From Laspinema olomoucense D3b (GTDB taxonomy: Bacteria > Cyanobacteriota > Cyanobacteriia > Cyanobacteriales > Laspinemataceae), in contig NZ_JAMXFA010000007.1 of assembly GCF_025370785.1 (NCBI RefSeq), positions 62,001-126,000 on the forward strand: 64,000 nucleotides of DNA, in the 5' to 3' direction. How positions within the stretch are numbered: the first letter of the stretch is position 1; each line of letters starts with the position of its first letter. The position numbers were made by a program, and so were the translations under genes. Positions 1,065 through 62,199 of this stretch are shown here, piece by piece. The notes below the pieces were generated by a model. The model did no database searches. It worked only from the letters and a program-made list of their open reading frames with translations, and was not told the origin of the DNA.

Positions 1065-1478
1065 TTACTCTAACAAAAACTTAAGAATTCCAGGGGATGA
1101 AATCGTCAGGTGTTGTTGATGGCCCGAAGGCGATCGCAATTTAATCGTGACAGTATTGCTATTGGGGACACCTGAGATATTTTCAATCCTATACCCTTGC
1201 AGGTTGGGACATTTACCCGTTCCCGACTCAGAAAATTCCTGGGATTGTTTTTTGAGAAACTCGTTCCAAAACCGGGAGTCTTCATGTCCTATTAATCGAT
1301 ATTTACAAGCATTTCCTTTAATCCGTTCGGTTTCAATCAAATATCCCTTCTCCTTGGCTCGGTGCATCGTATCCCCAAAGCGATGGCTAACGGTTACTAG
1401 ATCACTCGGGTAGTGCCACTCCCCATCACTCATCAAAGCCAGCAGTAAATCAATTTTAGTAACTTTCGGTTCGGTCAT
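1065..1478 (-). CDS. Hypothetical protein with N-terminal winged-helix-like segment
   Basis: 137 residues with an ATG start preceded by GAGG at good spacing (GAGGCACAAG then ATG). The first 65 residues (TKIDLLLALMSDGEWHYPSD, then RAKEKGYLIETERI and CKYRLIG) look like a winged-helix fold: a helix, an SDGEWHYPSDL turn, then a strand pair with KYRL. The C-terminal half is polar, with no motif I recognise. No partner gene is evident. It is separated from the MNT/HEPN pair by the tandem family-A repeats. A DNA-binding role is only a fold-level guess. Confidence 0.55.
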   Translation of the reverse strand: MTEPKVTKIDLLLALMSDGEWHYPSDLVTVSHRFGDTMHRAKEKGYLIETERIKGNACKYRLIGHEDSRFWNEFLKKQSQEFSESGTGKCPNLQGYRIENISGVPNSNTVTIKLRSPSGHQQHLTISSPGILKFLLE

Positions 1479-1658
1479 CTTGTGCCTCGTTGCACCCAGG
1501 ACGTTTCTGGATCTAGTTTTATGTCAACTAGATTATCGGAACAGGGGTCATTTCAGTCGAGGGAAGAAAAGCGCTCACTCGTGCGTTATTAGGAAGCCCC
1601 TCATTTTGGATCTGCCAGAAGGAGCCAGATGAATTAAGTTTATTGACTGACGACGAAC

Positions 1659-1757
1659 ACCGGAGGGGATAACGACTGAAGTCGTTACTACGAAAACCGG
1701 AGGGGAACGACTGAAGTCGTTACTACGAAAACCGGAGGGGAACGACTGAAGTCGTTT
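1659..1757. repeat. Three direct copies of a palindromic 34-36-bp unit
   Basis: The unit ACCGGAGGGG-AACGACTGAAGTCGTT-ACTACGAAA is repeated nearly perfectly three times. The core ACGACT-GA-AGTCGT is a palindrome. The same palindrome in reverse orientation occurs alone at 53144-53160, so the element is dispersed. Confidence 0.85.
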
Positions 1758-1869
1758 AGGCGGGAATACCTAAGTCCTGATGTAGAACTAACGATGAGTG
1801 GGATGAGCCTGTGTCAAAGAGGCTCGGTTCTGATGGCTCCACCTCAGCGGGATAGGGTGCAGGCAAAAG

Positions 1870-1898
1870 TTCCCAACCTAGTAACAATCCCCTATAAT
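1870..1898 (+). promoter_or_regulatory. Candidate sigma70-type promoter for the exopolysaccharide genes
   Basis: A perfect -10 hexamer TATAAT at 1893-1898 lies 17 nt after TTCCCA (1870-1875), which matches four of six positions of TTGACA. It points at the epimerase gene starting about 110 nt downstream. It is a sequence match only. Confidence 0.4.
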
Positions 1899-2006
1899 CA
1901 ACAGAGTTTTAAAGATTTGTTGCAAATCGCCCCTTACCCCCACGTCTGGATCCGTTAATCGGGGATTGAGGGAACTCTCAGCAATCCGGGAAATTCATAG
2001 ATCTCT

Positions 2007-4130
2007 ATGAAAGTTGCTCTCAAATCCCACGGATCCCAGTCCAAGCATAACGAGCGTTATGGAATTTATACTGTTCCCATGACCCAAAACTGGCTGATAA
2101 ACAACCTAGGGACTGCCTTTCAGTCCGCCGCTGCTTCTCTCTCAAGGCCCCAGAAACGTCTGATCCTGTTGAGTCTGGATACAGCAGTCTTTCTGGTCGC
2201 CATTTATGGGGCATTTGGACTCCGATTCAGCGATCTGTTTCCTGTTCAACAAACCTGGCCCTATCTGTGGCTGATTCTGCTTCTAATCGTGATCAAGCCC
2301 TTGGTCTTCCTGGTGACGGGAATGTACCGCCCAGTGCTGCGGTATGCAGGCTTGGAATTTTTATTAACAGCTACCAAAGCGGTCCTGTTCAGTTCGGGAG
2401 CCTTTGTCCTGCTCGCCTATTTATTTGAGTTCCTACAACTCCCGAGATCGGTACTCCTCAACGATGCCCTACTCACCCTATTGTTGGTGGTTGGAGTGCG
2501 TCTGTCTCTCCGGTGGTTGGTGAATGCCCTTATCGGTCTACCTCGGCAAAATCAAACCCCGGAAAGGATTGTAATTTATGGCGCTGGTTCGGCTGGGTCG
2601 CAACTGGCTCAATCCCTCGCTCATCACCCCAGCTACCAACCCGTTGCTTTTGTGGATGATGACCCCTCTTTAGCCAATCAGAATATTCAGGGGCTCCCGG
2701 TTTACTCTCCCACCACATTACCAAGACTCCAACTCCAAAAGCCTTTTGATACTATTTTATTAGCAATGCCTTCGGTCGATCGCATCAGAAAGCGGCAAAT
2801 TTTAGAAGGCTTACAGTTTCTATCCCTGCCGGTCAAAACCGTTCCCTGTATTGGCGAAATTTTATCCGGTCAGGTCTCCATTAGTGAAATTAGAAATATT
2901 GATATAGCGGACCTCCTCGGGCGGGAAGAAGTCATCCCCGATCCAGAATTGCTGCGGATGAATATCACCGGCAAAACGGTTTTGGTCACTGGGGCTGGGG
3001 GGTCAATTGGCTCGGAATTGTGCCGTCAAATTGCTCAACAACAGCCGAAATGTTTGGTGCTTTATGAATTGGGCGAATTTGCCCTCTATAGCATTGATAT
3101 GGAATTAGCTGAAGCTTATCCTACCCTCAAGCGTGTGGCTTGGTTGGGTTCAGTCAATGATGAGAAGCGGCTGACTGGAGTGCTGACAAAATATCAGGTG
3201 GATACCATTTATCATGCAGCAGCCTATAAGCACGTTCCCTTAGTCGAAGCGAATCCTTCTCCGGGAATTATCAATAACGTGGTCGGGACCTGGACCACAG
3301 TTCGCTGTGCGATCGACTGTGGGGTCGCTAATTTTGTGTTGATTTCCACAGATAAAGCCGTTCGTCCCACTAATATCATGGGGGCCAGCAAACGCGTGGC
3401 GGAACTGATTGTCCAAGCTTTAGCGGAGCGATCGGGGATTTCCACCCGCTTTACCATCGTGAGGTTTGGCAACGTTCTCGATAGTAGTGGTTCAGTGGTT
3501 CCCCGATTCCGCAAGCAAATCGCTGAGGGTCAAGCCATCACCGTCACCCATCCGGAGATGACTCGTTATTTTATGTCTATCCCCGAAGCCGCCCGCTTAG
3601 TGATTCAGGCAGGAGCAATGGGAAAACGCGGGGAAATCTTCTTGTTAGATATGGGTGAACCTGTGCGGATTTATGATTTAGCCCTGCAGATGATTCAGTT
3701 GAGTGGGTTAGTCCCCGGAAAGGATATTGATATTAAAATTACCGGCTTAAGACCGGGAGAAAAACTACACGAAGAATTATTAGTCGATAGTGCTAAAGCC
3801 AGACCGACTCAACATCCTAAAATCTTCTGCGCCCAAGAAGCGAAAATTCACTGGGAATTTTTACAGCCCCTTTTAGAGGCCCTGGTGCAAAAAACTCGCA
3901 CCGATGATGTGGTAGCCATTCGCGCCGAATTGCAACGCTTAGTTCCCGAGTATCAGCCTTCCTCTCTAGCTTTTCGGTCTCCTCGGTTAACATCCCGCTC
4001 CCCTTTAGAAGAACCCAAGGGGATTGGCGCTTCCAAATTGAATGGCTCTGGCAAAAATGAAGCAACGGTGTTATCGAGTCTACCTGTAGACGGAAGAGGG
4101 GCTGGCAGTGATAGCGTTACTCTACCGTAA
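2007..4130 (+). CDS. Membrane CapD/FlaA1-type nucleotide-sugar 4,6-dehydratase/epimerase
   Basis: A 707-residue polysaccharide-biosynthesis dehydratase of the long membrane-bound type (WbpM/CapD/PglF). Residues about 45-170 contain four hydrophobic membrane segments. A first Rossmann-like domain has VIYGAGSAGSQ. The catalytic SDR domain has VTGAGGSIGSELCRQ as the NAD-binding glycine motif and STDKAVRPTNIMGASKR, where Met replaces the usual SDR Tyr (SMK triad), as is typical of this family. It probably converts UDP-N-acetyl sugars into 4-keto-6-deoxy forms for surface glycans. The start is uncertain: an in-frame ATG at 2079 (MTQNWLIN) is also plausible, and neither has a strong ribosome site. 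It is first of three co-directional exopolysaccharide genes. Confidence 0.88.
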   Translation: MKVALKSHGSQSKHNERYGIYTVPMTQNWLINNLGTAFQSAAASLSRPQKRLILLSLDTAVFLVAIYGAFGLRFSDLFPVQQTWPYLWLILLLIVIKPLVFLVTGMYRPVLRYAGLEFLLTATKAVLFSSGAFVLLAYLFEFLQLPRSVLLNDALLTLLLVVGVRLSLRWLVNALIGLPRQNQTPERIVIYGAGSAGSQLAQSLAHHPSYQPVAFVDDDPSLANQNIQGLPVYSPTTLPRLQLQKPFDTILLAMPSVDRIRKRQILEGLQFLSLPVKTVPCIGEILSGQVSISEIRNIDIADLLGREEVIPDPELLRMNITGKTVLVTGAGGSIGSELCRQIAQQQPKCLVLYELGEFALYSIDMELAEAYPTLKRVAWLGSVNDEKRLTGVLTKYQVDTIYHAAAYKHVPLVEANPSPGIINNVVGTWTTVRCAIDCGVANFVLISTDKAVRPTNIMGASKRVAELIVQALAERSGISTRFTIVRFGNVLDSSGSVVPRFRKQIAEGQAITVTHPEMTRYFMSIPEAARLVIQAGAMGKRGEIFLLDMGEPVRIYDLALQMIQLSGLVPGKDIDIKITGLRPGEKLHEELLVDSAKARPTQHPKIFCAQEAKIHWEFLQPLLEALVQKTRTDDVVAIRAELQRLVPEYQPSSLAFRSPRLTSRSPLEEPKGIGASKLNGSGKNEATVLSSLPVDGRGAGSDSVTLP

Positions 4131-53274: not shown

Positions 53275-55713
53275 ATGAAATTACTCTATATTTTTCCAGC
53301 CTGTTTAGTCCTGGTGATGGCAGTGGGAACAGTCGCCCATTTAACCTTAGCCCAAAATTCGCGATCGCTCCCCAGTTCCACCCTCTCTCAGGGCAATCAT
53401 ACCCAGACTTCTTCGGACTCCCAAGATGTGGGGGGCTTGTATGTTTTATCCCCGGAAGGAGAAAAACAAGCCTTTACCCTCACCCATACCGATGTGAAAG
53501 CCCGGATTGATGGCAATGTCTCCCAAGTTGCGGTAACCCAACGGTTTCAAAACCCATTTGATGAGCCACTAGAAGCCATTTATGTCTTCCCGCTTCCCGA
53601 TGAAGCGGCGGTTTATGATATGGAAATTAAAATCGGCGATCGCATCATTAAAGGCGATATCAAACAACGGGAAGAAGCACAACAAATTTATGAAGAAGCA
53701 AGAGAACAAGGGCGCACAGCCGGATTATTAGAACAAGAACGGGATAATATCTTTACTCAATCCCTTGCCAATATCAAACCAGGTGAAGAAATTGAGGTCA
53801 CCATTCGCTACAGTGACAGTCTTTCCTTTGAAGGAGGAAACTATGAATTTGTCTTCCCAATGGTAGTCGGTCCGCGCTATATTTCCGGGACTCCAACTAA
53901 CCCCGGAACAACTAACACAGATGCAGTTCCTGATGCCTCACGGATTACGCCTCCCGTCCTTCGTCCTGGCACAAGGTCCGGTCATGATATTAGTGTTGCC
54001 GTTGAGATTAATGCCGGAGTTCCAATTTCCAATATCCAGTCACCCTCTCATAAAATTGTCACTTCTCAATCGGGAGAAATGGTTCGGATTGACTTAGCCA
54101 AAGCCGATTCTATCCCCAACAAAGATTTAATTCTGCGCTATCAGGTTTCAGGCGATCGCACCAAAGCAACGGTCCTCACCCACAGCGACGATCGCGGAGG
54201 ACATTTTGCCATTTACCTCATTCCCGCCTTAGATTACAACCGCAATGAAATTGTCCCCAAAGATGTCATCTTTTTAATGGATACCAGTGGGTCCCAATCC
54301 GGTGACCCCCTGATTAAATCCCAAGAATTGATGCGCCGCTTTATCAACGGCCTAAATCCTAATGACACCTTTACCATTATTGATTTTGCCAATACCGCGA
54401 CTGCCCTCTCTCCGCAACCGTTAGCCAATACTCCCGCTAATCGCAAAATGGCAATCGATTATATTAATCAATTGGACGCCAATGGGGGAACAGAGTTATT
54501 AAATGGAATTCAAACCGTTTTAAATTATCCTGCCGCTGAAAATGGCCGATTGCGGAGTATTGTCTTATTAACCGATGGCTATATTGGCAATGACATGGAA
54601 ATCATTGCTGAAGTCCAACAAAAGTTACAAGCAGGAAACCGTTTATATAGTTTTGGAGTGGGGAGTTCAGTGAATCGATTTGTCCTCGATCGCCTTGCCG
54701 AAGTGGGACGCGGAACTTCCCAAGTGATTCGTCAGGATGAACCGACAGAAGAGGTAGCGGAACGGTTTTTCCGACAGATTAATAATCCAGTTTTAACGAA
54801 TATTGAAGTGACTTGGGAAGGGGGTGGGGAACCGGCAGAAGTTTATCCTGGGTTACCGCCAGATTTGTTTGCGGAACAACCGTTAGTCTTGTTTGGACGG
54901 AAAGGCGATCGCGCTCGGGGACAGTTACGAGTTAAGGGAATTACTGCCAATGGCGATCGCTATGAAGAACTATTTCGGATGGCATTTGAGGAAGATGGCA
55001 ACCCGGCGATCGCGCAATTGTGGGCCCGCCATCGGATTAAAGATTTAATGACTCAAATGTATGCAGGAGAAACCACATCCGGGGTAACTGCCGTTACCAA
55101 TACCGCCCTCGCCTATCGGTTGCTGTCTGCTTACACCGCCTTTGTCGCCGTCAGCGAAGAAGTGCGAGTGGATCCCGATGGCACTACTCGCCGGGTCCAA
55201 GTTCCCGTGGAATTACCCCAAGGAGTCAGTTACGAAGGGATTTTTGGGGAAGAAAGCGAAGCAGATGCAGCAATAGGGATGCGGGGTCGGACTACCAGCG
55301 CATCTCCCCCACCGCCACCCTCTGCGGTACCTGTTCCCTTGTCTGGGGGTGCTCGTTCCGCTCCCGGTGGAGTCCAACCGCTGGATGAATCTTCCAACCA
55401 GGAAGGAGTTATGCCATTTCCCGAAGGTAGCGATCGCATTCAAGTGATGGATGCGGATCAATTAGATGCGGAAGCGACTACAGATTTAGAAGAATTATTC
55501 CAATATGTGTCCCTCTCCCCAGGAGTGACTGGGGAAGTGGTTTGGGAAATTGTAGTTCGTCAGGGTCAAATAGTGCGCGTGATGTTAGACGATCGCGCTT
55601 CTACCTTAACTGATCAAGGGGCGATCGATCTAATTCGTCAAACATTACAGACTTGGCAACCCCCTGAATCTCTCTCCGGAACCCTCCGGATTAAATTGCA
55701 AGTTCAGCCTTAA
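53275..55713 (+). CDS. VIT and von Willebrand A domain exported protein
   Basis: 812 residues with an N-terminal signal (LLYIFPACLVLVMAVGTVAH). The VIT domain (about 60-195) has VTQRFQNPFDEPLEAIYVFP, KGDIKQREEAQQIYEEAR and RDNIFTQSLANIKPGEEIEV. The vWA domain (about 345-505) has VIFLMDTSGSQSGDPLI (MIDAS DxSGS) and a Thr/Asp face. After a Pro-rich linker (SASPPPPPSAVPVPLSG) comes a C-terminal segment (GEVVWEIVVRQGQIVRVML) resembling a TonB-like fold. VIT-vWA proteins bind ligands or metal ions; the function in bacteria is not established. There is no protease domain. It is clearly exported or membrane-attached. Confidence 0.86.
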   Translation: MKLLYIFPACLVLVMAVGTVAHLTLAQNSRSLPSSTLSQGNHTQTSSDSQDVGGLYVLSPEGEKQAFTLTHTDVKARIDGNVSQVAVTQRFQNPFDEPLEAIYVFPLPDEAAVYDMEIKIGDRIIKGDIKQREEAQQIYEEAREQGRTAGLLEQERDNIFTQSLANIKPGEEIEVTIRYSDSLSFEGGNYEFVFPMVVGPRYISGTPTNPGTTNTDAVPDASRITPPVLRPGTRSGHDISVAVEINAGVPISNIQSPSHKIVTSQSGEMVRIDLAKADSIPNKDLILRYQVSGDRTKATVLTHSDDRGGHFAIYLIPALDYNRNEIVPKDVIFLMDTSGSQSGDPLIKSQELMRRFINGLNPNDTFTIIDFANTATALSPQPLANTPANRKMAIDYINQLDANGGTELLNGIQTVLNYPAAENGRLRSIVLLTDGYIGNDMEIIAEVQQKLQAGNRLYSFGVGSSVNRFVLDRLAEVGRGTSQVIRQDEPTEEVAERFFRQINNPVLTNIEVTWEGGGEPAEVYPGLPPDLFAEQPLVLFGRKGDRARGQLRVKGITANGDRYEELFRMAFEEDGNPAIAQLWARHRIKDLMTQMYAGETTSGVTAVTNTALAYRLLSAYTAFVAVSEEVRVDPDGTTRRVQVPVELPQGVSYEGIFGEESEADAAIGMRGRTTSASPPPPPSAVPVPLSGGARSAPGGVQPLDESSNQEGVMPFPEGSDRIQVMDADQLDAEATTDLEELFQYVSLSPGVTGEVVWEIVVRQGQIVRVMLDDRASTLTDQGAIDLIRQTLQTWQPPESLSGTLRIKLQVQP

Positions 55714-56076
55714 TTGATAATCCACTTAGGGAATTGAATCGTTAGGGAATATCCCCGGGAATGTCAAAGCCAGTGGTAACCTAATAGAGAGCGCATCTTG
55801 TAGAAAGTAAACTGTTCTTTTGGCAGTGGGACCATTTTTTGCCCCGTCAGCATTAGGCACTAAGATGTTCCCACGCCTTAAGGGTATTTCCAGGCTAATT
55901 TAGAGTCCCGATCGTTTTAATGAACCCTGGCTTTGACGCCCCTTACAGGTTGAGCAGTTCATGCTTAGATCTGACCCACCTTGCCCTAGGTCATTTGAAA
56001 ATGAATCAAATGTAAAACAGTAGAGACTCAGGGGGGAAAGAACCCAAACCAAGAAACCGCCTTAAAAAATTAAACA
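55714..56076. other. 363-bp gap, no gene supported
   Basis: It probably contains the promoter of the histidine kinase. A CATTTGAAAATGAATCAAATG inverted sequence lies near 55993-56013. I see no clear -35/-10 pair. Confidence 0.4.
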
Positions 56077-58281
56077 ATGAGTCATTTATTTAGGCAATCT
56101 ACCAAATCACTTCCCTTACAGCTTATCTTAATTGTTCCCTTTGTTTTACAAATTGCTGTTGCCGTTAGCTTGGTAGGCTATCTTTCTTTAAAAAATAGTC
56201 AGCAAGCCGTCAATGAACTCGCGAACCGCTTATTTTATAAAACAGCAACCATCGTTAATCAGCATTTAGATAGTTATTTGTCTGTTCCTCATAAAATTAT
56301 CCAAATGAATGCTGACGCCATTCAAATGGGAGTATTAGATGTGACCCAAAAAGATAAAATCGGTCATTATTTTTGGAAACAGATGCAAGCCTATGACTTA
56401 AGTTATATCGGTTATGGTTTAACTACCGGAGAAGGGGCGGGTGCAGCTCGGTATGATGGAAAAACAACCGTTATTGACGAGTGGACTGCTCAACTTCCTA
56501 ACAATACCCGCACTTATGCAACGGATGCCCTCGGAAATCGGACCCAATTACTTGCTCTATCCGATTATGATTTATTAAATCAATCCTGGTATGTAGACCC
56601 TTTGAAGGCGGGTAAACCAATTTGGTCTCAAATTTATATTTGGGATAATCCCATCAGCCCTTTTATCACCCTTTCTGCGGGCCGACCGATTTATGATTCA
56701 AATCAAACCCTGCTGGGGATGACAGGGGCTGATATTCACTTACTCAAACTGAGTGATTTTCTGGCTCATTCTAATCCGAGTCAGAGTGGAGTTATTCTGG
56801 TTGTAGAGCGCAATGGATTATTAATTGCTATTTCTGATGGGACAAAACCTTATAAGCAAGTGGATGGACTCACGAAACGGATTGCCGCCCGAGAAGTTGC
56901 CAATCCTTTGGTGCAAACTCTCTCTCAAAAAATTGAATCCTATTATCCGAATGGATTTAATTCTATCCAAGAAACTACTCGGTTAGAATTCATCATTCAA
57001 AAGAAAAAATACTTAGTTTATTTAACTCCTTGGACTGAAAAAAATGGCTTAGACTGGGTTGTAGTCATTAGCATTCCCGAACAAGAATTTATGGGTAAAA
57101 TAAATGCTAATAATCGGATCACTGCCTTGCTGTGCCTAGGGGCCGTTATTGTAGCCATAGCTCTGGGTATCTTTACCAGTCAATGGATTGCCCATCCCCT
57201 GCGCAAATTAAACCGGGCGAGTCAAGCAATGGCAAGCGGTAATTTAGAGCAAAGTGTTGAAACCAGCCCGATTTTTGAAGTTCAAGCTTTATCGCGATCG
57301 TTTAATACGATGGCAGAACAGTTACAAAATTATTTTTTAGCCTTACAACAAACCAATTTAGATTTAGAACATCGGGTAGAAGAACGGACCCTAGACCTCA
57401 AAAATACTTTAGAGGAGCTACAGCGTACCCAAGAACAAATTGTCCAATCTGAAAAAATGTCAAGTCTGGGTCAACTCGTGGCGGGGGTAGCCCATGAAAT
57501 TAATAATCCCGTTAATTTTATTCATGGAAATATTACTCATCTGGATACCTATACTCAAGATTTAATTAAAATACTCCAACTTTATCAAAATTTATATTCT
57601 CCCCCTGCCCCAGAGATTGCTGAGTTATCTGAAGACATTGAATTAGATTTTATTGTGGAAGATTTACCTAAAATGCTCAGTTCTATTCAAATCGGAACCG
57701 AGCGAATTCGGAAGATTGTACTGAGTTTAAGAAACTTTGCTCGCATGGATGAATCTCCCGTTAAAGATGTCAACCTTCATGAAGGGCTGAACAATACTGT
57801 GATGTTATTAGTCCATCGTTTAAAGTCAAATGATGAGTTGTCTCCGCCGATTAACCTGATTAAAGACTATGGAGAATTGCCTAAAGTTGAATGTTATGCA
57901 GGCCAAATTAATCAAGTTTTTATGAATGTCATTTCTAATGCGATTGATGCCATCGAAGAACGCTATGATTCTCAACGGGAAAACGGCCTGATTCCCGACG
58001 GGGGAACCATTAAAATTAAAACGTATTTGACTGAGGAGGAAATGATTAATATTTCTATTATTGATAATGGTAAAGGCGTTGATAAAGCTTTAATTAATCA
58101 GGTTTTTAATCCTTTTTTTACCACCAAACCTGTGGGCAAAGGTACAGGATTGGGTTTGTCGATTAGTTATTCAATTGTCCAAAAACATGGGGGAACTATT
58201 TTGGTGGATTCTGAACTGAATCAGGGAACTCAAATTACTATTTTGATTCCTCAAAAAATTAAAAGCCCCGTCAAAACTTAA
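56077..58281 (+). CDS. Membrane sensor histidine kinase, Cache-HAMP-HisKA-HATPase
   Basis: 734 residues. Membrane helix 1 (LQLILIVPFVLQIAVAVSLVG), an extracytoplasmic ~300-residue sensor with the dCache pattern (WYVDPLKAGKPIWSQIYIW, LGMTGADIHLLKLSDFL), and helix 2 (ITALLCLGAVIVAIALGIF). HAMP follows (HPLRKLNRASQAMASGNLEQ), then a coiled coil, HisKA with the phospho-accepting His in LVAGVAHEINNPVNFIHGN, and HATPase with N box QVFMNVISNAIDAIEE and G boxes IIDNGKGVDK and GKGTGLGLSISYSIV. There is no receiver or regulator gene next to it, so its partner is elsewhere. The Cache domain probably binds a small solute outside the cytoplasmic membrane. Confidence 0.93.
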   Translation: MSHLFRQSTKSLPLQLILIVPFVLQIAVAVSLVGYLSLKNSQQAVNELANRLFYKTATIVNQHLDSYLSVPHKIIQMNADAIQMGVLDVTQKDKIGHYFWKQMQAYDLSYIGYGLTTGEGAGAARYDGKTTVIDEWTAQLPNNTRTYATDALGNRTQLLALSDYDLLNQSWYVDPLKAGKPIWSQIYIWDNPISPFITLSAGRPIYDSNQTLLGMTGADIHLLKLSDFLAHSNPSQSGVILVVERNGLLIAISDGTKPYKQVDGLTKRIAAREVANPLVQTLSQKIESYYPNGFNSIQETTRLEFIIQKKKYLVYLTPWTEKNGLDWVVVISIPEQEFMGKINANNRITALLCLGAVIVAIALGIFTSQWIAHPLRKLNRASQAMASGNLEQSVETSPIFEVQALSRSFNTMAEQLQNYFLALQQTNLDLEHRVEERTLDLKNTLEELQRTQEQIVQSEKMSSLGQLVAGVAHEINNPVNFIHGNITHLDTYTQDLIKILQLYQNLYSPPAPEIAELSEDIELDFIVEDLPKMLSSIQIGTERIRKIVLSLRNFARMDESPVKDVNLHEGLNNTVMLLVHRLKSNDELSPPINLIKDYGELPKVECYAGQINQVFMNVISNAIDAIEERYDSQRENGLIPDGGTIKIKTYLTEEEMINISIIDNGKGVDKALINQVFNPFFTTKPVGKGTGLGLSISYSIVQKHGGTILVDSELNQGTQITILIPQKIKSPVKT

Positions 58282-58555
58282 GAAAGTTCAGTTCTTGAAT
58301 TCTTGGACACTAAGTTTTCATGCCTATTTCAAGGGGTGCATCCCGCTTTTCCAGTGGTCCTTGGTCGGGGAAACGCTATAAATGTGTTTGGGAACCGTTC
58401 TAATCAAGTCAGGGGTAGGAGAATGTTAGGTTTAGCAAGGTCTTGGTCTTTTGAGGAATTGATGCACTCAACGCAAACCTGACGATTTAATAATTGATCT
58501 ACATTTTACGGCTCGAATTAATTTACTTGATACAAAAACCACCAATTTTCGTGAT
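58282..58555. other. Gap between convergent genes, no gene supported
   Basis: AT-rich. No terminator hairpin with a T-run is evident on either strand. Confidence 0.35.
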
Positions 58556-58696
58556 TTAATTGGCAATGGTAACATTTATCCAGTCTTCTTTACCCATTTC
58601 GATCCATTGATCTAATTTGGCAAGATATTCACGAGATTGTTGATTCATTTCTGGCTCTTTAATTTTTAGTACCCAGTTGGAATCTTGTGAGCACAT
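58556..58696 (-). CDS. 46-residue ORF directly downstream of the adenylation-acyltransferase gene
   Basis: A small frame found by direct reading: ATG at 58694-58696, 6 bp past the stop of the adenylation gene, with GTGGAG about ten bases upstream inside that gene's end. It encodes MCSQDSNWVLKIKEPEMNQQ, then SREYLAKLDQWIEMGKEDWI and NVTIAN. It is Glu/Lys/Trp-rich and predicted helical, with no signal peptide or membrane segment. I do not recognise the family. The position and ribosome site suggest co-translation with the upstream gene and perhaps a partner role, similar to small MbtH-like helpers only in position, not in sequence. Confidence 0.55.
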   Translation of the reverse strand: MCSQDSNWVLKIKEPEMNQQSREYLAKLDQWIEMGKEDWINVTIAN

Positions 58697-58702
58697 GATC
58701 TA

Positions 58703-61525
58703 TTACTCCACAGCTAACTTAATTTTTGAGGCGATCGCTCTATTTAAGAATTTCTGGATAATTTTAATTCCCCACCACAGGATCACTCCGACTACTAACG
58801 CAAAGATAATATGCAACAAAAGACTACCTATATTGTCAGTTTTGTCAATTCCTGTGACATTCTTGAGGAGAATAAAGGCAGCCATATGGGTCACGTAGAT
58901 AGAATAGGATGCAGAACTAATCAGTTGTATCGGCTGTTTTAATATCTGCGGTACAGAAACATATTGTTTCCATAGAACAATCATCCCTCCCACTAATATC
59001 CATAACTGAATTGACAACTGTTGCTCTGGCCACATAAATACGGGGAGCGGCAATATGATGCTAGTAACCACCTTTTGATACTTAGATTTGGCAAAATGGG
59101 CAGACCAACCGAGCGCAAAAAGCCACAGTAACATATAGGGCAAACAAAGGTTAGTGTAATAACTTACTGGTTGGTCAGGCGCAGGCATCCAGAAATAGGG
59201 CACTATCTGATTAGTAAATACACCCACCCCGAAAATCATCAAGCCAAATTTCCACGGGGATAAGTTGGCCAGATTGCGAATTTGTGGAATAGAAAATAGT
59301 AGTAAGAATATCACAATCAACTGGGCAAGCACCTGAATAAACCAAACAAAAAACACTGAGCCTTTTCCTGGAGCTAAAAAGTTACTTACCAATAGCAGAA
59401 CTGGAAAATTCCAGTAACCATACTCTGGATGATTTAATATTTGAGCATATACCTGAAAAACCCACACTATAGACACATAAGGAATTATTATGTTGCTTAA
59501 AAGTGAATTGAAGGGTTGCATTAACCGACCGGCGAGCAAACTGGCACCATTAAATCTCGCTAAGTTTTTTCCAGCAATTAACAGCATTAGATAAGCTCCA
59601 CCTTTAAGGTAAATACTCGTCAAACTCGCGTGAAAAATTACTACTGCACAAATTGCTAAAGTCCTCAACAAAATGCTAGTTTCAATCGTCCTATTTTTTC
59701 GCTCCTCTGGTTCTTGTTTCTCTAGCTGACTAACAGTCATTTCTTCCCAAACTGGAGGTAGATATCCCAAATAGCGCTCAAGTTTCATGGAAAATTGAAT
59801 ATAAGATAGGGAATTACCTCCCAAGGAAATAAAAGTATCCTGAGGCTGAACTTGACGCAGATTTAAGGCTTCACAAAATAGCTTTTTAATTTCTGTGTCA
59901 GCAGAATACTCACCGTCCCCGGGTTGATTGTCCAGAAAGCTAGGTTTTGGTAAAGCAAGACGATCTAATTTTCCATTAGGAGTCCGAGGAAATACCGCCA
60001 TTTCCATGAACACAGCCGGTAGCATATAATCAGGGAGTTTTTGAATTAAAAACTCTCGCAATTTATGATGCAATGTAGACTGATCGCGATAACTTTCAGC
60101 CGGTTCGGGGATGATATAAGCCACCAGGATATTTTCTCCTGATGGTTTTTGGTGGGCGACAACTGTGGCTTGTCTAACGGTGTGATGTTCTTCTAAGATT
60201 GTGGCAATTTCATCGAGTTCTACCCGCATACCGCGAATTTTTACTTGAAAGTCAGTGCGACCCAGCACTTCGATACTTCCATCGGGTAATTGCCGCACCA
60301 CATCTCCGGTTTTAAACAGTTTGGGCAGAGGGCGATCGCTGGTAGAATCTCGTTCAGCCCAAGGGTTAGGAATAAATTTTTCTGCGGTCAGGTCATCCCG
60401 ATTCAAATAACCCCGACAAACACAACCTCCAGCCATCATTAGTTCACCCACTTCTCCCGTTGGGATTGGGTTGAGATTTTCATCTAAAATGTAGCAATGA
60501 TTGTGAGGATAAGGATAACCCACTGGAAAATGTCCTTCCTGACCCTCGAAGTCTGGAGGCATTTCGTAGGCTAAGTTGCCAATGGTTTCACTTTGTCCAT
60601 ATACATTGAAAAAGCGGATCTGTTTGCCCAGAAAATGTTTAATTTTTTGGACTAAAGCACAGGTGGTATTTTCTCCTGATAGCACCACAAATCTGAGACG
60701 GAGTTTTGACGGATAAAATCCCTGTTTCTCTTCCTCAGCTAAGATTTCTAAAATTGACCGCCAAATCGAACAAACTCCATCAGATATCGTGACTTGCTCT
60801 TGACCCATTAGGTTCAGTAATTCCCAAGGATTTTTGGTTTGTTCTCGCGTGGCGATTAGCACTTTGGCTCCCTGAGACAGTGGCAGCATTAATTGTCTAA
60901 TGGAAGAAGAAAACGAGAAGGATGCAACGTGCAGATAAATATCCTCCGGCTGGACTGTCACCACCTGACTTAATGCCTGAATGTATCGGACTATATTAAT
61001 ATAGGGCATCTGTACCCCTTTTGGCTGTCCAGTGGAGCCAGATGTGTACATAATGTAGGCTAAGTTTTCCGGTAATATTTCTGTGGGTAAATTCTCCCGA
61101 CTATACTGAGCAATGGTATCCCAGTTAGAGTCTATATAAGATATTTTCGCCGAGGATGGAGGCAGGCGATCGCACAAATGTTTTTGCGTCAACAATAGAG
61201 AAAATTGTGTTTCCTGGGCGATATATGTTAATCGTTCCTGCGGATATCCTGGATCTAGGGGAACATAAGCTGCTCCGGCTTTAAAAATCCCCAGAATTGT
61301 CACAACGATTTCGATGGATCGCTCCATGAATATCCCAATTAATTGCTCACAACCCACTCCCAAATCTTTCAGATAATGGGCGAGTTGGTTCGCTCTTTGA
61401 TTGAGTTCTGAATAAGTTAATTGCTGACCGTTACAAACAACTGCGCTCGCCTCTGGAGTCTTTTGGACTTGGCTCTCAAAGATTTGATGAAAGCTCGTCA
61501 GATGTTGAGTGTTTCTTTTCTCCAT
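58703..61525 (-). CDS. NRPS-like fusion: adenylation domain, carrier protein, membrane acyltransferase (OafA type)
   Basis: 940 residues, ATG with AGGAGAG upstream. Adenylation domain 1-520: A2 LTYSELNQRANQLAHYL, A3 LAYIMYTSGSTGQPKGV, A5 FFNVYGQSETIGNL, A7 LFKTGDVVRQLPDG, A8 GRTDFQVKIRGMRVELDEIA and A10 PNGKLDRLALPK. At A4 the usual FDAS is SFSFSSSIRQ, so the Asp that anchors an amino-acid amine appears to be Ser. Carrier domain near 545-600: FISLGGNSLSYIQF, phosphopantetheine Ser about residue 571. The last 310 residues are a polytopic acyltransferase-3 domain starting SILLRTLAICAVVIFHASL (Arg and His as in OafA). There is no condensation or thioesterase domain. It probably activates an acid, loads it on the carrier and transfers it to an acceptor at the membrane. 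Confidence 0.9.
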   Translation of the reverse strand: MEKRNTQHLTSFHQIFESQVQKTPEASAVVCNGQQLTYSELNQRANQLAHYLKDLGVGCEQLIGIFMERSIEIVVTILGIFKAGAAYVPLDPGYPQERLTYIAQETQFSLLLTQKHLCDRLPPSSAKISYIDSNWDTIAQYSRENLPTEILPENLAYIMYTSGSTGQPKGVQMPYINIVRYIQALSQVVTVQPEDIYLHVASFSFSSSIRQLMLPLSQGAKVLIATREQTKNPWELLNLMGQEQVTISDGVCSIWRSILEILAEEEKQGFYPSKLRLRFVVLSGENTTCALVQKIKHFLGKQIRFFNVYGQSETIGNLAYEMPPDFEGQEGHFPVGYPYPHNHCYILDENLNPIPTGEVGELMMAGGCVCRGYLNRDDLTAEKFIPNPWAERDSTSDRPLPKLFKTGDVVRQLPDGSIEVLGRTDFQVKIRGMRVELDEIATILEEHHTVRQATVVAHQKPSGENILVAYIIPEPAESYRDQSTLHHKLREFLIQKLPDYMLPAVFMEMAVFPRTPNGKLDRLALPKPSFLDNQPGDGEYSADTEIKKLFCEALNLRQVQPQDTFISLGGNSLSYIQFSMKLERYLGYLPPVWEEMTVSQLEKQEPEERKNRTIETSILLRTLAICAVVIFHASLTSIYLKGGAYLMLLIAGKNLARFNGASLLAGRLMQPFNSLLSNIIIPYVSIVWVFQVYAQILNHPEYGYWNFPVLLLVSNFLAPGKGSVFFVWFIQVLAQLIVIFLLLFSIPQIRNLANLSPWKFGLMIFGVGVFTNQIVPYFWMPAPDQPVSYYTNLCLPYMLLWLFALGWSAHFAKSKYQKVVTSIILPLPVFMWPEQQLSIQLWILVGGMIVLWKQYVSVPQILKQPIQLISSASYSIYVTHMAAFILLKNVTGIDKTDNIGSLLLHIIFALVVGVILWWGIKIIQKFLNRAIASKIKLAVE

Positions 61526-61643
61526 CTTTTATGCTCTCCTGGGAGTAATTATTTTTTAAGAATTGTCCAGCAGCACCCAATTTTTTTCAATTGTAACCTA
61601 CATTCCGCAGGTAAAATAGGAGAGGATGGAATATTGTAAAACC

Positions 61644-62199
61644 ATGACAGACATAGCATTCAGCCTTATTTTACAGGATATTGACCACTGTGGCATAGTA
61701 AGAAAGCATCATTGATGAGATCGGGCTTGTCGAGCTGATTAACCGGGAACTATCGCCCCACCCCAAACCCCCTTGTGAGTCCAGGAATCATCGTCAAAGC
61801 GATAATTCTCATTAGACTTGGTGAGCGCCCCGTTGTATTTATTTTCCCAATTCTTTGTCGGCAAAGCCACAGAACATTTGCGTTGGATTAGGTATAACAC
61901 CACAACACCTCAATGATGACGTTGTAGGTTGAGTCCTAGATTAACTCTATGAAGCAGGCATCACTGAGCTATTTGTCAAAATTGCCTTGGCTGCCGCCCA
62001 CAGGTCTAGAGTAAATACCCAAAGCCTACACCTCGATTCAACATCGTTTCCTGTTCATGGACAATATCTTCGGGAACCTAAGCCAACCGTCGAACCCGTT
62101 TCGATTGAGATCAATTATGGATACTCAAGAGAGCACCGTCCTGACTTAAAGCAATTTATCATGGACTTGATTTGTAGTTCAGACGGCGATGTTCCGTTA
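61644..62199 (+). pseudogene. Decayed DUF4277 / IS1634-like transposase
   Basis: From ATG at 61644 the sequence encodes MTDIAFSLILQDIDHCGIV, the typical start of DUF4277 transposases. After a frameshift come SIIDEIGLVELINRELSPH, a further shift to SPGIIVKAIIL, and another to LFSQFFVGKATEHL. Then GITPQHLNDDVVG follows with in-frame stops, then LYEAGITELFVKIALAAAH, VNTQSLHLDSTSFPVHGQYL and EINYGYSREHRPDLKQFIM, ending at LICSSDGDVPL. At least three frameshifts and several stops make it non-functional. Its last part is antisense to the 3' end of thiD. No intact terminal inverted repeats were recognised. Confidence 0.88.

Follow-up and report, generated by a model that had tools for sequence, protein, structure and literature searches.

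The subject of this analysis is a gene of the cyanobacterium Laspinema olomoucense D3b (assembly GCF_025370785.1) that lies in a 64,000-nucleotide stretch of contig NZ_JAMXFA010000007.1 (positions 62,001 to 126,000), here called the window. Its open reading frame (ORF) joins an adenylation (A) domain, a carrier domain (PCP) and an AT3-like membrane acyltransferase in one chain, as a preliminary description of this DNA had claimed, and a 46-codon ORF follows it (Table 1). A Pfam search of the 940-residue protein with a threshold of E <= 0.1 matched AMP-binding (residues 16-374, 1.7e-80), AMP-binding_C (residues 439-519), PP-binding (residues 545-587, 2.4e-6) and, weakly, Acyl_transf_3. As nothing further was matched, condensation, thioesterase and reductase domains are absent at this threshold, in line with the same description. 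The protein also passed the NCBIfam model for non-ribosomal peptide synthetase (NRPS) adenylation domains, TIGR01733, with 386 bits against a cut-off of 317. Judged from its sequence, the protein is intact, motif-conserved and under purifying selection: the open frame is kept in three genomes, and pairwise dN/dS against the homologue of the same-genus genome G004, estimated with a custom script, is 0.26 overall, 0.16-0.37 by domain and 0.18 for the AT3 part. The AlphaFold model of residues 605-940 (pLDDT 89.6, pTM 0.88) has helices up to the C-terminus, which together with the dN/dS of 0.18 rules out the truncated acyltransferase that had been raised as a caveat. The model of the full protein has a mean pLDDT of 79.8 and a pTM of 0.60 and matched NRPS A domains in Foldseek. 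The genome holds one phosphopantetheinyl-transferase gene. No RNA element reached the gathering score between positions 58000 and 62500, and scans for promoters (9 found, 8.9 expected) and terminators (4 found, 3.3 expected) stayed at chance level.

Table 1. Features of the A-PCP-AT3 locus, in window positions.
Feature	Position	Strand	Evidence
Large ORF, A-PCP-AT3 three-domain protein, 940 aa, ATG start	58703..61525	-	ORF call, Pfam, homologues
Adenylation (A) domain, residues 1-530; A10 Lys519, Ser206 where A domains for alpha-amino acids have Asp	59936..61525	-	Pfam, alignments
A-core segment with discordant ancestry, residues 99-400	60326..61231	-	Trees and segment identities
Carrier (PCP) domain, residues 545-587; Ser572 in GGNSL	59765..59893	-	Pfam, alignment A2
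AT3-like membrane acyltransferase, residues 605-940; Arg621-x10-His632, SxxxY (Ser873/Tyr877), His880, no RxxR	58703..59713	-	Pfam, alignments, AlphaFold
46-codon ORF, ATG start, very probably an insertion-junction ORF	58556..58696	-	Homologue comparison, stub, rimM resemblance
Codons 17-36 of the 46-codon ORF, clearest resemblance to the RimM N-terminus of G013	58589..58648	-	tblastn, shuffles
26-codon 5' stub (ACG for ATG) of a GmrSD-type gene	58508..58585	+	Homology to G001, G002, G003, G006

The three-domain architecture, which had been taken to be rare, proved common in rhizobia and Actinomycetota. Rhizobial records hold full-length matches to the window protein at ~26% identity, and its PCP-AT3 part was matched in 87 plasmid records, with at least 80% of the query covered in 44. 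A scan of genome contigs with the window protein alone gave no match; a profile search built on an alignment of 13 members returned at least 592 stretches, at least 586 of them confirmed as relatives, whichever part of the query matched. Two patterns were used in this search, and one place may count twice among the at least 586. All locus counts given here rest on the best 80 of these stretches, which are the best-scoring ones and not a random sample. A family ORF is present in 75 of the 80 loci, with a length of at least 830 aa in 71, and the taxa are Hyphomicrobiales and Rhodobacterales (rhizobia and roseobacters), Actinomycetota and a few other groups. These proteins (L068-L147), mostly annotated as 'AMP-binding protein' and on plasmids, share with the window protein the domain order, a GGxSLxY carrier motif, Arg-x10-His and the lack of RxxR at ~23-27% full-length identity, but they have a different type of A domain ('PLHYSYGLS') and some stand beside an iron transporter. 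Cyanobacterial carriers are few: with the D3b genome itself counted, the gene occurs in 4 of 388 genomes of the order, in 3 of 386 of a phylum sample, where the limit was stricter, in 3 of 14 Laspinemataceae, the family, and in 2 of 8 of the genus. Of the cyanobacterial homologues, that of G004 is 93% identical and that of G013, from the same family, 56%. The PCP-AT3 cores of G004, G013 and a further cyanobacterial genome, G638, are 93, 55 and 44% identical to that of the window and cluster with it (support 95/90), whereas G013 has another A-core and G638 a distant A domain. In G638, Acyl_transf_3 was not matched at E <= 0.001.

Alignment A2 combines the window protein with 54 ORFs taken from the 71 that reach 830 aa (n = 55). 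K519 (motif A10), S572 (the carrier serine), R621, H632, W728, F729, Y877 and H880 are invariant in all 55. At E <= 0.01, AMP-binding was matched in 55 and PP-binding in 47 members, while AMP-binding_C was found in one, the window protein. In a separate set of 13 members, R621 and the carrier serine occur in all; His632 is kept in 12, G638 having Gln there, and His880 in 11. The window protein unites A, carrier and AT3-like parts in a single chain and has K519, S572, R621, H632, W728, Y877 and H880; by these characters it belongs to a widespread, seemingly unstudied three-domain family that is rare among cyanobacteria. In searches of an open-licence library we found no description of the A-PCP-AT3 architecture, which is the sole sense in which we call it undescribed; in passages of PMC554113 the terms of the architecture appear apart from one another.

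The AT3 part hints at an unusual acyl donor. AT3 proteins such as OafA, OafB and OatA are membrane bundles. Passages of published work place Arg-x10-His in transmembrane helix (TMH) 1 and RxxR in TMH3 of AT3 proteins and note that arginines of both helices may bind CoA (PMC9833829; PMC12423673; further PMC9558356, PMC7448272). The donor of ordinary AT3 proteins is acyl-CoA, most of the conserved residues touch the adenosine and 4-phosphopantothenic parts of CoA, and in HGSNAT the TMH3 Arg and a TMH2 Phe reorient upon acetyl-CoA binding (PMC9833829; PMC12423673); the fusions named in these passages are with SGNH and racemase domains. The window protein shares Arg-x10-His in TMH1 and SxxxY in TMH9 with these proteins and probably has a similar membrane bundle. 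In A2, Arg-x10-His is present in all 55 members, compared to 18 of 30 ordinary cyanobacterial AT3 ORFs by pattern, and SxxxY is largely kept (Ser in 39, Tyr877 in 55). RxxR is found in none of the 55 members, the window protein included, at the matching columns, which were calibrated on one AT3 protein of the same genome, whereas RxxR followed by Pro occurs by pattern in 28 of the 30 ordinary ORFs. The term OafA-like used in the preliminary description thus holds at the level of the superfamily and fails beyond it. The TMH2 Phe is also missing from all 55 members, which have Met or Leu in its column, while the loose pattern F..SG was found in 25 of the 30 ordinary ORFs (one of these, L175, is probably mis-picked and was scored as a miss). 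The absence of RxxR and of the TMH2 Phe throughout A2 is consistent with a donor arm that comes from the fused carrier. Separately, several ordinary AT3 proteins of the genus (L001, L163-L167, L172, L174) have Arg-x9-His, not Arg-x10-His, in TMH1.

The A domain suggests what may be loaded. In alpha-amino-acid A domains, Asp235 (GrsA numbering) holds the alpha-amino group of the substrate. The window A domain, whose A4 motif is FSFSSS, has Ser206 at what we take to be this position; Ser206 aligned with the Asp of LgrA, and its column in A2 is Ser in 30 and Cys in 25 members. With Ser in place of the Asp, a hydroxy, keto or aryl acid appears a likelier substrate than an amino acid. The same FSFSSS motif occurs in three cyanobacterial proteins, L006, L007 and L009, whose A domains are 67, 53 and 48% identical to that of the window. 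L007 and L009 are lone A-PCP proteins that, by eye, continue into a thioesterase-like C-terminal part and have no AT3 domain, and L006 stops after the A domain. As observations in their own right, L006 (positions 1426-3051, genome G010) is a stand-alone A domain in a 542-codon frame with no carrier, and L007 and L009 share with the window the unusual motif without the alpha-amino-acid Asp.

Two trees disagree, with strong support, on the ancestry of the cyanobacterial proteins. In the PCP-AT3 tree, the window, G004, G013 and G638 are grouped as above, whereas in the A tree the window and G004 join L006, which is a lone A domain (99/99), and G013 joins L009, a protein that combines A, PCP and thioesterase-like parts (100/97); G638 lies far off on a very long branch and its placement is unsure. 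Between the window and G013, identity is 80% over residues 1-98, 45% over 99-400, 79% over 401-434, 57% over 435-530, 79% over 531-600 and 50% over 601-940; between the window and L006 it is 73% over 99-400 and 40% over 435-530. Since the AT3 part is also just 50% identical, the dip at residues 99-400 proves little by itself and the conflict between the trees carries the argument. The pattern fits an A-core exchanged on a constant carrier-transferase core, a kind of exchange known for NRPSs.

Taken together, we consider it probable, if well short of assured, that the 940-residue protein is a self-contained, carrier-fed membrane acyltransferase, a mobile single-gene trait with an exchanged A-core, and that the 46-codon ORF beside it is insertion debris. 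The A domain would activate, with ATP, a carboxylic acid without an alpha-amino group, presumably a hydroxy, keto or aryl acid, and load it on the phosphopantetheine arm of Ser572, for which the motif is present. This arm, in place of acyl-CoA, would then enter the AT3 pore from the cytosolic side, where Arg621 and His632 together with Tyr877 and His880 may help to pass the acid to an acceptor at the membrane or on its other side. A glycan or glycolipid acceptor is favoured for the cyanobacterial proteins, most likely through a hydroxyl, because of what AT3 proteins do in general and because the A-PCP-AT3 gene of G638 stands among five glycosyltransferase genes. The PCP-AT3 core may have entered the chromosome at a variable slot, and the A-core, which binds the substrate, may have been swapped. 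The G638 relative (L060, 6703-9120) combines its place in a glycosyltransferase cluster with a distant A domain and the lack of two AT3 histidines.

In the current view, AT3 proteins take acyl groups from acyl-CoA and carry them across membranes. A fused activation-carrier-transfer family without several CoA contacts would, if the proposed reading is true, amount to a pore fed by a tethered arm. It would allow donor loading and transfer to be followed jointly with the product of a single gene, and would be a natural example of how the added group is altered through A-core exchange. A wider proposal, which we rate as less likely than not, is a broad, undescribed and CoA-independent class of transmembrane acyltransferases, each with its own A domain and carrier. 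The phosphopantetheine arm of the carrier would pass through the AT3 pore and bring a non-amino acid to the opposite side of the membrane; the class would serve ferric-iron capture beside FbpABC in Actinomycetota and some rhizobia and would have been reprogrammed by A-core exchange in cyanobacteria.

Several observations weigh against a carrier-fed acyltransferase. The Acyl_transf_3 (PF01757) match of the window protein, which spans residues 619-918 and nearly the whole profile, is weak (2.3e-4, 20.8 bits) and does not reach the Pfam cut-off of 31; in A2, this family was matched in 42 of 55 members at E <= 0.01. Position 731 is Glu in 54 of the 55 members and Gln in the window, so that this family character is lacking. 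Within the 13-member set, which is separate from A2, G638 lacks both His632 and His880 and Rhodococcus fascians lacks His880. No partner genes stand beside the window gene. As regards the ten-helix TmAT fold, the AT3 model is confidently helical, and it matched no PDB entry at E 0.001: HGSNAT entries had the highest probability among the 50 PDB matches listed (0.72, TMq 0.40-0.44), yet at E 0.48 and up, and the top row by E-value was an unrelated transporter. The loss of CoA contacts is also partial, since the TMH1 Arg, itself a proposed CoA binder, is retained, Arg occupies the second RxxR column in 30 members of the 55, an Asp lies at -4, not -3, of the TMH1 Arg in 24, and the plain pattern RxxR..P occurs somewhere in 28 family AT3 parts, away from the calibrated columns. 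We infer that this partial loss is an adaptation to a tethered phosphopantetheine arm. Among further structure searches, one viral model matched the AT3 model (E 8e-5, TMq 0.62), and a PDB sequence search with the AT3 part returned designed repeat proteins alone, which were judged spurious.

Some of the same observations could indicate a decaying chimera, in which the A-domain exchange left no working match between substrate and acceptor. Gln is found at position 731 in the window, G004 and G013 and Ser in G638, and the rare, patchy occurrence in the phylum sample and in the family (3 of 386 and 3 of 14 genomes) and the chimeric ancestry agree with decay. The open frame in three genomes, the low dN/dS across all domains and the retention of the remaining invariant residues speak against it, and we regard decay as very unlikely. 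A Dlt-like or Alm-like system, in which the A domain activates an amino acid and AT3 esterifies a surface polymer to give it positive charge, is somewhat less improbable but still unlikely. The order of activation, loading on a carrier and transfer at the membrane is that of the Dlt system (DltA, DltC, DltB, DltX), and DltA models align to the window A domain. However, the DltA equivalog TIGR01734 gave 253 bits, far under its cut-off of 560, Ser206 replaces the alpha-amino Asp, with Ser or Cys throughout the A2 column, and neither an MBOAT nor a DltX match was found by Pfam; membership in the Dlt system was rejected on these scores. The Dlt system consists of separate proteins with an MBOAT transferase and an amino-acid substrate, in contrast to the single AT3-like chain of the window. 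The resemblance seen in the preliminary description therefore survives as activate-load-transfer logic in one polypeptide and falls away for the amino-acid substrate. AlmEFG of Vibrio cholerae and the Pls/PosA polyamino-acid synthetases also couple an A domain and carrier to a membrane reaction, but with a different transferase or tandem C-like domains.

The genes beside the relatives raise another alternative, that AT3 sets the loaded acid free in the form of an ester or amide. This small product, released or held in the membrane, would be a ferric-iron ligand and would enter the cell through an FbpABC-type transporter. An FbpABC-type permease lies beside the family gene in 15 of the 80 loci and a substrate-binding protein (SBP) in 14. 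The nearest transporter gene is at most ~254 bp away by alignment ends in all 15 linked loci, where it shares the strand of the family gene in 8, diverges from it in 6 and converges with it in 1 (the match start of L146 was taken as its gene start), and in R. fascians the family gene overlaps a transporter gene by 4 bp. Thirteen linked loci are among the 31 actinomycete loci, as counted from record titles, and two are from Rhizobium; the full FbpABC set was found in 3 of 8 further records, which also supplied search queries. Twelve hand-picked genomes of the 31 actinomycete ones, including five linked ones, hold 13 such SBPs in all, as counted with one SBP query where the loci were searched with three, and chance adjacency is therefore ~0.3% per locus. 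Apart from the family ORF, clustering of the neighbours across the 80 loci chiefly reflected synteny within Sinorhizobium; ABC ATPases, which are ABC-F by eye and by annotation, form the largest cluster, with 32 loci. An iron role for the non-cyanobacterial relatives is accordingly a strong lead, which makes a function testable in laboratory rhizobia. For the window protein, such a role is improbable, although we rate it above the other alternatives. No FbpABC-type transporter was found in the window at E 1e-15, where a tie to iron uptake was rejected, or in the 14-15 kb around the four cyanobacterial homologues of G004, G013, G119 and G638, and 65 of the 80 loci have no permease match. Moreover, the window clade has a different type of A domain, and the transporter link could concern uptake of the substrate instead. 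The iron-transporter and glycosyltransferase contexts point to different acceptors.

The 46-codon ORF had been presented as having a ribosome site. Its ATG, the GGAG upstream of it (by eye) and its position 6 bp (58697-58702) past the large ORF stand as described, and these would be expected of a small DltX-like partner. Such a partner is nonetheless extremely unlikely: the ORF matched no Pfam or NCBIfam family, so that MbtH-like and DltX-like candidates were rejected, and it is absent beside the homologues of G004 and G013, an outcome that the preliminary description had itself named as refuting. In G004, DNA similarity ends just past the stop codon of the large gene, and in G013 rimM follows there; among 18 relatives, with G013 left out, two weak matches were obtained (E 0.57 and 0.64), and none in G004. 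Instead, the ORF is very probably an insertion junction. Homology to a GmrSD-type gene stops at base 58585, and the window keeps the first 26 codons of that gene. The 3' end of the ORF, its codons 38-46 plus stop (58556-58585), is antisense to this stub, with codon 37 as the junction. The gene is full length (567 aa) in G002, G003 and G006 and reaches 418 aa up to the contig end in G001; Pfam assigns the G003 copy to the GmrSD type, and PADLOC finds it HEC-06-like. The stronger half of the argument lies in the stub and in the absence of the ORF from G004, the weaker one in the origin of its first part from rimM. Codons 3-36 resemble the N-terminus of RimM of G013 (tblastn E 2e-5 in 14 kb), with an alignment score of 65 that none of 2000 shuffles reached (highest 49); in 200 shuffles against two loci the highest score was 53. 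Direct descent from a G013-like donor with rimM is not retained as fact, because the gap to rimM is ~340 bp in G013 and ~50 bp here. An intact rimM lies elsewhere in the genome.

The order ftsZ, thiD, variable slot and VIT/VWA gene is found in seven of eight same-genus genomes, the window included, and is cut by a contig end in G001. Genomes differ in what the slot contains: G002, G003 and G006 have the GmrSD-type gene there and G001 its start, G005 has UPF0175 and DUF3368 genes, G007 a histidine kinase gene, G004 the A-PCP-AT3 gene, and the window both of the last two. The whole interval from the VIT/VWA gene to thiD (55714-62193 in the window; L057, L062-L067) is variable in the genus. The genome also has a second VIT/VWA gene (G000:C44:90945-92819), 67% identical to the one at 53275-55713.

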